Notes under the pieces: generated by a model
Told to the model about the DNA's origin: nothing
Database searches by the model: none
Seen by the model: the letters and a program-made list of their open reading frames with translations, nothing else
Program-made: the position numbers and the translations under genes
Shown here: positions 4,533-25,501 of the stretch, piece after piece
Numbering within the stretch: position 1 is the stretch's first letter
Layout of the letters: the number at the start of each line of letters is the position of its first letter
NCBI GenBank assembly: GCA_947503885.1
Contig: CANNFD010000001.1
Coordinates: forward strand, 186,001-250,000
Source: an uncultured Olleya sp.
GTDB taxonomy: Bacteria > Bacteroidota > Bacteroidia > Flavobacteriales > Flavobacteriaceae
Reading direction: 5' to 3'
DNA: 64,000 nucleotides

Positions 4533-4724
4533 AAATTATAATTTTATGCAAAGATAGTAGAGTTTTGCTGTTTTAACAGAATTTAGTGTTGTGATTTAGC
4601 CAACCAACTATTTTTAATACTTAGTAAAAATTCACCTAAAATAGATTTGAAAATTATTATTAAAATTAACATTTTTTAAGAGTTGCATATAGCTATAAGC
4701 ATTAATTTTGCAGACTTAAATTAA

Positions 4725-4789
4725 TTATCAAGAATCTCGGAAAAGGAGATAGCAACCTGCAATAACAAGCAAGGTGCTAAATAGATAAG
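4725..4789 (+). ncRNA. Compact S-box / SAM-I-like riboswitch aptamer candidate
   Basis: TTATCAAGA...GCAACC...GGTGCTAA...AGATAAG appear in order, matching the conserved S-box core segments. P1 ttatc/gataa, P2 atctc/gagat, P3 acctgc/gc-a-aggt can form. P4 and the longer P2 with pseudoknot loop are not visible. Confidence 0.7.
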
Positions 4790-4850
4790 CCAATTATTTG
4801 GAACAAATGTTAAATCATACTTCTACTTATTTGCTGCTATTTCCTTTTTT
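4741..4850 (+). promoter_or_regulatory. Putative expression platform of the S-box-like leader
   Basis: aaaaggagatagca (4741-4754, the aptamer P2 3' strand plus the start of GCAACC) pairs over 14 bp (one G-U) with tgctatttcctttt (4835-4848), which is followed by more T and then the start codon at 4868. Confidence 0.6.
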
Positions 4851-22299: not shown

Positions 22300-23583
22300 T
22301 TATTTTAAATCTTTTAATCTAATAGTTACAGCATTTTTATGTGCTTGTAATCCTTCGGCTTCAGCCATTAACTCTATAGTTTCTCCAATGTTTTTTAACC
22401 CTTGCTTTGTAATGTTTTGAAATGTAATTGCTTTTGTAAAGCTATCTAAATTGACACCAGAATACGCTTTACTAAAACCATTGGTTGGCAAGGTATGATT
22501 AGTCCCAGATGCATAATCACCTGCGCTTTCTGGTGTGTAGTTTCCAATAAATACTGATCCAGCGTTTTCAATTCCGTTTACATAAAAATCGTTGTTTTTA
22601 GTGCATACAATAAAATGTTCTGGTCCATATTGGTTAATCATATCTAAGGCGATTTTATCCGTTTTAACTAAAATTGATTTAGAGTTTTGTATCGCTTGAT
22701 TAGCTATTTGAAACCTTGGCAGGTCTTTAATCTGTACTTCAATTTGTTCTGATACTGCGTTAATTAATTTTTGGGATGTTGATACCAAAATCACTTGACT
22801 ATCTATGCCATGTTCTGCTTGACTTAATAAATCTGATGCAACATAACTTGCATTTGCAGTATCATCTGCAACCACTAACAACTCACTTGGTCCAGCAGGC
22901 ATATCGATAGCAACTCCATATTTGGTCGCTAATTGCTTAGCAACAGTTACAAATTGATTACCAGGTCCAAAAATTTTGTACACTTGCGGAATACTTTTTG
23001 TCCCAAAGGTTAATCCTGCAATTGCCTGGATCCCACCAACTTTAATAATTTTTGTGACACCACATAATTGAGCAGCATATAAAATTTCGTTAGCAATTTC
23101 ACCCTCTTTATTTGGAGGAGAACAAAGTACAACTTCTTTACAGCCTGCTATTTGCGCAGGAATAGCCAACATTAAAACTGTTGAAAATAAAGGAGCTGTG
23201 CCTGCTGGAATATAAATCCCAACTTTTTGAATGGCTCTTTTTTCTTGCCAACAGCTTACGCCTTCTGTAGTTTGGATATAAACATTATCGTTTTTTTGAG
23301 CTTCATGAAATGCCTGGATATTGTCTTTTGCTTGTTGAATAGCTTCTTTTAATTTGGTTGAAATTTTAGAACTTGCTTCCTCAATTTCTTTGGTGTTAAC
23401 AGTATTTGAAGTTAATTTGGCTCCGTCAAATAATTGCGTGTATTTAACAATAGCTTTATCACCATTACGTTTTACGTCTTCAAAAATTTGAGTTACCGTA
23501 ACCTCTATATCCTTAACCGTTTGTGTTGGCCTTTTTAATAGTTCTGACCAAGTTGATTGTTCTGGGTTTATTATTGTTTTCAT
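22300..23583 (-). CDS. hisD: Histidinol dehydrogenase
   Basis: VGIYIPAGTAPLFSTVLM; KIFGPGNQFVTVAKQ; AEHGIDSQVILVS; YGPEHFIV. Confidence 0.97.
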   Translation of the reverse strand: MKTIINPEQSTWSELLKRPTQTVKDIEVTVTQIFEDVKRNGDKAIVKYTQLFDGAKLTSNTVNTKEIEEASSKISTKLKEAIQQAKDNIQAFHEAQKNDNVYIQTTEGVSCWQEKRAIQKVGIYIPAGTAPLFSTVLMLAIPAQIAGCKEVVLCSPPNKEGEIANEILYAAQLCGVTKIIKVGGIQAIAGLTFGTKSIPQVYKIFGPGNQFVTVAKQLATKYGVAIDMPAGPSELLVVADDTANASYVASDLLSQAEHGIDSQVILVSTSQKLINAVSEQIEVQIKDLPRFQIANQAIQNSKSILVKTDKIALDMINQYGPEHFIVCTKNNDFYVNGIENAGSVFIGNYTPESAGDYASGTNHTLPTNGFSKAYSGVNLDSFTKAITFQNITKQGLKNIGETIELMAEAEGLQAHKNAVTIRLKDLK

Positions 23584-24440
23584 TATAGTACCATATTATC
23601 GATTGGACAAACTAGGATGCCTTCTGCTCCATTTAATTTTAATTCGTCTATAATTTCCCAAAACTCATTTTTATTAATTACAGAGTGTACTGAGCTCCAT
23701 CCTGCTTGCGCAAGAGGTAATACCGTTGGACTTTTCATACCTGGTAAAATATTAATGATAGCATTAACTTTACTATTAGGCGCATTAAGCAGCACGTAAC
23801 GGGATTGTCTAGCTTTTAAAACAGATTGAAGTCTAAATTGCAGCTTGTCAAGTATTGCTTGATTAACTGTAGATATTAAAGGAGACACTGCTAACACTGC
23901 TTCGGATTTTAAAATTACTTCTACTTCCTTTAATCCGTTTTTAAACAAGGTGCTTCCACTTGATACAATATCTACAACAGCGTCTGCTAAACCTATATTT
24001 GGTGCAATCTCTACAGAGCCATTAATGATGTGTAAATTGGCAGTTACTCCGTTTTTGTTTAAATACTGATTCACTGTATTTGGATAAGAAGTAGCGATAC
24101 GTTTACCTTGTAAGTCTTTAACTGTATTGTATTTTACACCTTTAGGAACAGCTATTGAAACTTTACAACTTGAAAATCCTAATTTTTCGGTAATTGAAAT
24201 ATCATTACCTTTTTCTATAAGTATGTTTTCTCCAATAATAGCAACGTCTACAACTCCATCTTTAAGGTATTGTGGAATGTCTCCATTACGTAGATAAAAA
24301 ATTTCTAGAGGAAAATTTTTAGCTGATGCTTTTAATTGGTCTTTACCGTTATCTATAGAAATACCAACGTCTTTTAGGATTTGCATCGAATCCTGATTTA
24401 ATCGTCCTGATTTTTGAACTGCAATTTTTAATTTACTCAT
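23583..24440 (-). CDS. hisG: ATP phosphoribosyltransferase, long form
   Basis: KIAVQKSGRLNQDSMQILKD; RNGDIPQYLKDGVVDVAIIGEN; GLADAVVDIVSSGSTL; C-terminal regulatory domain. Confidence 0.97.
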   Translation of the reverse strand: MSKLKIAVQKSGRLNQDSMQILKDVGISIDNGKDQLKASAKNFPLEIFYLRNGDIPQYLKDGVVDVAIIGENILIEKGNDISITEKLGFSSCKVSIAVPKGVKYNTVKDLQGKRIATSYPNTVNQYLNKNGVTANLHIINGSVEIAPNIGLADAVVDIVSSGSTLFKNGLKEVEVILKSEAVLAVSPLISTVNQAILDKLQFRLQSVLKARQSRYVLLNAPNSKVNAIINILPGMKSPTVLPLAQAGWSSVHSVINKNEFWEIIDELKLNGAEGILVCPIDNMVL

Positions 24441-24490
24441 AGTGTTTTTGATTGTGTATGAGTAAATCTTAGGAAAGTGTATAAAAACAA

Positions 24491-24519
24491 AAAACCGTTT
24501 GATTTACTCAAACGGTTTT
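24491..24519 (-). terminator. his operon attenuator terminator
   Basis: Minus strand aaaaccgtttga-gtaaa-tcaaacggtttt followed by tgttttta, located between the leader peptide and hisG. Confidence 0.85.
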
Positions 24520-24549
24520 AAAAATATTTTGGGTTTATTCAATACATCT

Positions 24550-24606
24550 TCAACTGGCTTGAGTGCTAGTATGAAAATGATGATGTAAAGATTGAATAAA
24601 ATTCAT
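24550..24606 (-). CDS. his operon leader peptide, 18 aa (not in supplied ORF track)
   Basis: ATG AAT TTT ATT CAA TCT TTA CAT CAT CAT TTT CAT ACT AGC ACT CAA GCC AGT TGA = MNFIQSLHHHFHTSTQAS*, 4 His in 5 codons, upstream of hisG. Confidence 0.88.
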   Translation of the reverse strand: MNFIQSLHHHFHTSTQAS

Positions 24607-24685
24607 TTTTTGTTTTTTGTCTGAACAAAGATTCTGAAAAAAAGTTTACAAAACCTAATTGTTGTTCATTATTTTTTTAAAATTT

Positions 24686-25501
24686 CTATTGGTTACCTAA
24701 TATAATTGGCATTCCGCTATCTCCAGAACCAATTACAATAACCTTACTATTAGGCGATTCTGACAACTTTACGGTCGCTTCAATACCTTTGTCTTGCAAA
24801 ATTTTATCAGTTAAAGATGCACTTAAAATTCTGTTTGCATCTGCCTTACCTTGTGCTTCAATAATTACTTTTTCAGCTTCTTTAGATGCTGTTACTAATC
24901 TAAATTCATATTCTAAAGACTCTTGCTCTTGCTTTAATTTACGCTCAATAGCTTCTTTAATAGTAGGTGGTAATGTTACATCTCTAACCAAAACCTCATT
25001 TAATTGAATGTATTGATTTTCGACAAGTTTTTTAGTTTCTTCAAAAATCTCTTGTTGAATTGCATCACGCTTGCTAGAATATAATTGCTCTGGAGTATAT
25101 CTACCTACAACGCTTCTTGCTGCAGAGCGTACTGCTGGCAATAATACACGTCCTATATATTCTTTACTTTTTTCTTGGTGTAATTTTCCTAAGTTTTTAT
25201 AATCTGGTTGAAACCAAATTGAAGCATCCAATTTAATATCCAATCCGTTTGAAGATAAAGCACTCATTTTTTCAAAAACCTCTTGTTGTCTTACCTCATA
25301 GATAAACACCTTGTTCCATGGTGCTACAATATGAAATCCTTCACTCATAGGTGGCTCATCAACTACAACCCCTTTTCCAAAAGTTTGAAAAAGCACACCT
25401 GCTTGTCCAGAATCAATAGTTACTGCTGTTTTAGCTATTAAAATTATTGCTATTACAGCTGCAATAAGTATTGGGAATGCAATTTTTGGTAATTTTTCCA
25501 T
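24686..25501 (-). CDS. Prohibitin/SPFH-domain membrane protein
   Basis: VTIDSGQAGVLFQTFGKGVV; RSAARSVVGRYTPEQLYSSKRDAIQQEI. Confidence 0.92.
   Translation of the reverse strand: MEKLPKIAFPILIAAVIAIILIAKTAVTIDSGQAGVLFQTFGKGVVVDEPPMSEGFHIVAPWNKVFIYEVRQQEVFEKMSALSSNGLDIKLDASIWFQPDYKNLGKLHQEKSKEYIGRVLLPAVRSAARSVVGRYTPEQLYSSKRDAIQQEIFEETKKLVENQYIQLNEVLVRDVTLPPTIKEAIERKLKQEQESLEYEFRLVTASKEAEKVIIEAQGKADANRILSASLTDKILQDKGIEATVKLSESPNSKVIVIGSGDSGMPIILGNQ

Follow-up and report, generated by a model that had tools for sequence, protein, structure and literature searches.

A predicted histidine operon attenuator in Olleya and its relatives, with a conserved segment beyond the terminator

The leader upstream of hisG in an uncultured Olleya sp. 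(Flavobacteriaceae) almost certainly controls transcription of the his operon, in its core, by ribosome-mediated attenuation, and the whole is very probably best explained as a his attenuator that, in Flavobacteriales, carries an additional segment (F) beyond the terminator, complementary to the terminator apex. The parts of the leader, their mutual exclusivity, their conservation and a partial co-variation are established; the order of the switching events is inferred. The window analysed is a stretch of 64,000 nt (assembly GCA_947503885.1, contig CANNFD010000001.1, positions 186,001 to 250,000), to which all coordinates refer. A first-pass annotation made from the same letters had named a promoter-like element, a leader ORF, a pause hairpin, an antiterminator and a terminator with T-run, and all of these are present on the minus strand before hisG. 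It had also contrasted the case with the Proteobacteria and judged it worth documenting outside them, which is agreed; the phylum-wide spread of the leader was missed, as was F, the proposed interval covering promoter to terminator but stopping before 24468–24456.

The leader follows an SPFH-type gene (end at 24686) on the same strand as hisG, and is itself followed by a complete his operon in the order G-D-C-B-H-A-F-IE, assigned from ORFs and NCBIfam equivalog matches, all on the minus strand: hisG, the first gene (23583–24440, starting at 24440), hisD (23583–22300), hisC (22218–21169), a bifunctional hisB (21076–19943), hisH (19883–19302), hisA (19250–18516), hisF (18457–17702) and hisIE (17609–17007). 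The promoter-like element, TTTTG-N14-GAATCTTTG (24626–24653, minus strand), is a weak match to the Bacteroidota TTTG/TAnnTTTG promoter: the first T of TAnnTTTG is absent and the spacer, at about 14 nt, is shorter than usual. This is the weak point of the earlier proposal, although 166 of 196 relatives have DAnnTTTG no more than 60 nt from the leader ATG, and TAnnTTTG, expected in about 10, is present in 43.

The leader ORF (24550–24606, minus strand) encodes the peptide MNFIQSLHHHFHTSTQAS, with four His codons; its codons read ATG AAT TTT ATT CAA TCT TTA CAT CAT CAT TTT CAT ACT AGC ACT CAA GCC AGT TGA. Short His-rich ORFs precede hisG in all 30 of the first relatives compared and in all 80 named genomes, 79 of the latter by a strict rule (an ORF of 6–44 aa upstream of hisG that contains two or more overlapping HH). 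Of 135 Flavobacteriaceae loci, 125 pass the same rule, while shuffled regions pass it at a rate of 0.15%. Eight of the ten that fail have a His-rich ORF whose run is broken by one residue; also among the ten are a locus whose leader is visible on the strand opposite to that read (L108) and one mis-cut at a contig end (L052), whose leader is present in L227, apparently another copy of that record. With these two corrected, all 135 loci carry a His-rich leader. The HHHFH-type leader ORF recognized in the first-pass annotation is thus confirmed, and the absence from relatives that had been named there as counting against attenuation was not encountered in any Flavobacteriaceae locus inspected. 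The hairpin before hisG might instead be a mere terminator of the SPFH gene, which does lie upstream on the same strand, and the ORF fortuitous; given a His-run ORF before hisG in all relatives inspected, and the rarity of such ORFs among shuffled regions, this has a negligible probability.

Among 196 distinct Flavobacteriaceae loci with a terminator, the leader ORF is 17–18 aa long in 187 and starts with ATG in 194, and each leader has 3–6 His codons, both codons being used (775 CAT, 58 CAC). Divergent leaders (e.g., MKQITHIHHHHFLTNG and MKQFLHIHHHHILPDGKRDDAM) precede hisG in most loci sampled from other families of the phylum; no leader was found in the stretch inspected upstream of hisG at loci L196, L198, L200–L202 and L204. 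As judged from these sequences, His attenuation is phylum-wide in Bacteroidota, with predicted leaders across most sampled families. In loci L137–L165, from other families of the phylum, the leaders are often longer, with many scattered His codons (e.g., MKQTLLYISHLHLDVHHAHHGHHHIHVQ), possibly a different leader design. The ORFs of L010, L014, L099, L105 and L284 are shortened by a stop inside or before the usual position of segment B (e.g., MKFIQSHHHHHHICT, then stop), leaving B after the stop codon; the position of the ribosome at release would differ in these.

The 127-nt leader RNA folds into a pause-type hairpin followed by the terminator, with an energy of −30.2 kcal/mol, whereas shuffled sequences average −13.3 (z = −6.4; none of 200 dinucleotide shuffles as good). 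The intrinsic terminator, AAAACCGTTTGAGTAAATCAAACGGTTTT (24491–24519, minus strand), has 12 pairs, a loop GTAAA and a following T-run; the terminator scan, in which 0.1 would be expected by chance, recovered it, in agreement with the strong hairpin described beforehand, and a scripted search placed a terminator between leader ORF and first gene in 230 of 252 distinct loci. The pause-type hairpin consists of segments A (TTTATTCAATctttACATC, 24582–24600), which overlaps the ORF start and first His codon, and C (GATGTATTGAATAAA, 24534–24548). Nearest-relative swaps favor the native A:C combination (own better in 21, swapped in 8), but in branch-disjoint pairs on the hisG tree, which replaced single-trait independent-pair tests with too few changes, the difference is weak (18 vs 10, p = 0.18); the pause hairpin proposed earlier folds as described and is best taken as a candidate.

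Segment B (ACTCAAGC, 24564–24557), near the end of the ORF, is the predicted 5′ partner of the antiterminator. It is complementary to the first part (24513–24506) of segment X, the terminator 5′ arm plus loop (24513–24501), forming eight pairs, including one G-U, that overlap the terminator arm and exclude it. The first base of the codon before CAA/CAG in this region (in Thr ACT, Ser TCT or Ala GCT) is Watson-Crick complementary to the second base of the terminator loop in 105 of 182 species, against 60 expected, and own X:B was better than swapped in 25 nearest-relative comparisons and worse in 8. The branch-disjoint test, with few informative changes, gave a non-significant 7 vs 5, and at equilibrium the terminator wins over both B:X and X:F in almost every species, whether or not a ribosome is modelled. 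The antiterminator as first described is borne out as a conserved, mutually exclusive pairing, but not as the equilibrium winner: with a masked ribosome, the switch failed to appear in equilibrium folds, the terminator being almost always preferred. This speaks against a purely thermodynamic account, and antitermination would have to rest on the order of synthesis, with B:X forming first.

The leader is laid out on the classical plan, in compact shape. Segment A shares sequence with the first His codons, and a ribosome stalled on them would keep A from pairing with C. B lies downstream of the His run: a ribosome halted at the first His codons would leave it exposed, and one that has reached the stop codon and waits there would cover it. 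With His-tRNA in short supply, the ribosome would stall on the CAT codons, masking A and leaving B free to pair with X the moment it is transcribed; the terminator pairing of X with its 3′ arm (E) would then come too late, and RNA polymerase would enter hisG. When His-tRNA is plentiful, the ribosome would reach the stop codon and cover B, X would pair with E, and transcription would stop. If the leader is untranslated, A:C would trap B and transcription should stop as well. With the His run, mutually exclusive stems, terminator and operon all present and conserved, the ribosome-mediated reading put forward in the first-pass annotation is well supported.

Segment F (GATTTACTCATAC, 24456–24468, minus strand) lies 15 nt before the hisG ATG and is complementary, in 12 of 13 positions, to GTTTGAGTAAATC, which spans the end of the terminator 5′ arm, the entire loop and two bases at the start of the 3′ arm. 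Across the 196 Flavobacteriaceae loci, own sequences have a mean X:F score of 22.8, shuffled F regions 12.7 and swapped ones 17.3; in 144 loci the own score exceeds all 20 shuffles. Among 57 nearest-relative pairs with different apices, own X:F was better in 43 and worse in 4 (p = 2.8e-9; controls A:F 20/21 and C:F 22/19), and branch-disjoint pairs on the hisG tree gave 16 vs 4 (p = 0.012; controls 20/17 and 19/14). There are 37 different loop sequences, each with a fitting F across the whole loop. The pattern recurs in 11 genomes of four other Flavobacteriales families, with very unlike terminator apices (e.g., GCCTTGAGTTTTTCAG, CTGGTCGCCAG, TGCCGAAGTGTTT): the own X:F sum is 279, against 182 ± 14.5 when permuted, and 0 of 20,000 permutations reached the own sum. 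Outside Flavobacteriales, 27 loci gave no X:F signal (own 280.5, permuted 288). By these comparisons, F is conserved across Flavobacteriales, is real and is evolving with X, and the two very probably pair in vivo.

One alternative is a plain attenuator in which F, repeating the terminator apex by accident or inheritance, has no function. Some Flavobacteriaceae have lost F (the X:F score is at least 19 in 84 of 116 tree rows), it is absent in other classes, and the terminator is thermodynamically preferred, all of which would fit; that F follows 37 loop sequences, including unrelated ones in other families, goes beyond shared ancestry and makes a functionless F improbable. Another is that X and F, which are inverted copies at a fairly constant distance, form an inverted DNA repeat bound by a protein regulator. 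The letters vary freely between species while complementarity is kept, even in families with unrelated sequence, and such a repeat is very hard to credit. A protein site would keep its letters, whereas those of F change freely along with X, and on this ground F as a DNA operator was rejected.

Since F is transcribed only once RNA polymerase is beyond the terminator, it can have no part in deciding termination. The most likely role of F is that of a post-terminator competitor adding control of hisG translation or mRNA fate: in readthrough transcripts F would compete for X and thereby add a second layer of control on hisG, through start-site access or the fate of the mRNA. Possibilities for how it would act, in descending order of preference, include: mainly in cis on translation initiation, the first choice here though held tentatively; in cis on mRNA stability or processing, which is possible but rather doubtful; in trans, through terminated leader RNA, which is unlikely; and some other role, which is less likely still.

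Translation start in Flavobacterium is described as tuned by mRNA structure, with Shine-Dalgarno sequences absent (PMC6847099). If mRNA structure tunes the start in this way, a helix ending 13–18 nt before the hisG ATG, as F does in 92 of 128 species, could limit ribosome entry, and B not holding X would leave X available for it. A second group at 33–50 nt, about 20 species that include the closest relatives of the window (about 36 nt), weakens simple occlusion of the start site. X:F is lower in energy than X:E in only 10 of 128 species (median gap 3.2 kcal/mol), a figure which bears the mark of the folding program's scope, since a state with the lower terminator stem and X:F paired together lies outside it; in cis, X:F may be short-lived unless part of that lower stem stays paired.

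As to action in trans, the short leader made at high histidine, presumably abundant, might bind F on the remaining his mRNAs by its terminator loop, and repress them. Complementarity to loop and 5′ arm suits loop-to-linear pairing, F adjoins the hisG start, and trans-acting attenuator RNAs have a precedent in rnTrpL of Sinorhizobium (PMC7298713); X on the same mRNA would, however, normally win in cis, and the probability assigned to this route is low. There is about an even chance that the his attenuators of Flavobacteriales work as four-way RNA switches. Here antiterminator, terminator and the post-terminator F would all contend for X, and a single leader peptide would govern transcription readthrough as well as what becomes of the resulting mRNA or how it is translated, either in cis or, by way of the terminated leader RNA, in trans.

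Of known systems, the his attenuator of E. coli and Salmonella (hisL; RF00514, His_leader) is alike in having a short ORF with a His run, a stop codon near the antiterminator, an intrinsic terminator shortly before hisG and, presumably, the same logic. It differs in that E. coli has seven His codons and Olleya four, in that B is inside the ORF in Olleya, and in F, which is present in Olleya and absent in E. coli (score 10, below shuffles). The Olleya leader has no match to RF00514 at the gathering score or up to E = 10, nor, at the gathering score or in a permissive search, to RF01692 (Bacteroid-trp) or the Rfam T-box model.

In the trp leader of B. subtilis, downstream structure in the readthrough RNA adds control of translation of the first gene. 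The suggested role of F resembles this in placing a second control on the first gene in readthrough RNA. The B. subtilis system differs in its reliance on TRAP and a hairpin at the Shine-Dalgarno sequence; Bacteroidota are without Shine-Dalgarno sequences (PMC6847099). The predicted His attenuators of Firmicutes (PMC9413887) and the hisS/hisZ attenuators of bacilli (PMC2965389) are similar in having leader peptides with 3–5 His codons and a terminator and antiterminator predicted from compared sequences; they differ in their independent sequences and lineages, and the passages that describe them report no post-terminator complement.

Rfam 15 yielded no family for the Bacteroidota his leader, in a whole-window search and a permissive search of the leader, and no report of a Bacteroidota his attenuator was found in the literature searched. 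The abstract of Vitreschak et al. 2004 reportedly mentions attenuators in Bacteroidetes/Chlorobi, and some Bacteroidetes attenuators may have been predicted before. The authors of a 2010 survey (PMC2965389) wrote that they knew of leader-peptide systems demonstrated in no groups other than Proteobacteria and Actinobacteria, and a 2022 study of histidine regulation (PMC9413887) names attenuators in Proteobacteria and some Firmicutes. With no Rfam family, and with attenuators reported for other phyla, the evidence suggests that the core is a newly documented case of a known type, classical His attenuation, and that F is a feature not previously described, as far as was found. Textbook His attenuation would then be standard in a large phylum with mRNAs devoid of Shine-Dalgarno sequences, with the his leader supplying a family missing from Rfam. 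F, in turn, points to an unreported layer of attenuation, in which a conserved segment further downstream competes for the terminator arm; should F act in trans or on translation, a single leader would control both RNA synthesis and how the escaping transcripts are used.

Attenuation in Bacteroidota is in itself already known: Bacteroid-trp (RF01692; Weinberg et al. 2010, PMC2864571), likewise an attenuator-type leader of Bacteroidota, matches the trpE leader of this genome. That leader (L297, 1230–1355, plus strand) has a Trp leader peptide, MNIILNHTWWWNFRKSNFVN (WWW), and a terminator; it differs from the his leader in a presumed response to Trp through its codons and in unrelated sequence, and no F-like segment was found in the trpE leaders of the relatives examined. 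A further short ORF in the same genome (L313), Ile/Val-rich (MSKQVIIIISIISIVIISRSQGML), lies about 350 nt upstream of an ilvD match and is followed by a terminator-like hairpin; it is identical in L315, has no Rfam match and is likely an ilv attenuator. Elsewhere in the window, at 4720–4817 on the plus strand, the Rfam search identified a SAM-I-IV riboswitch (RF01725, 62 bits).
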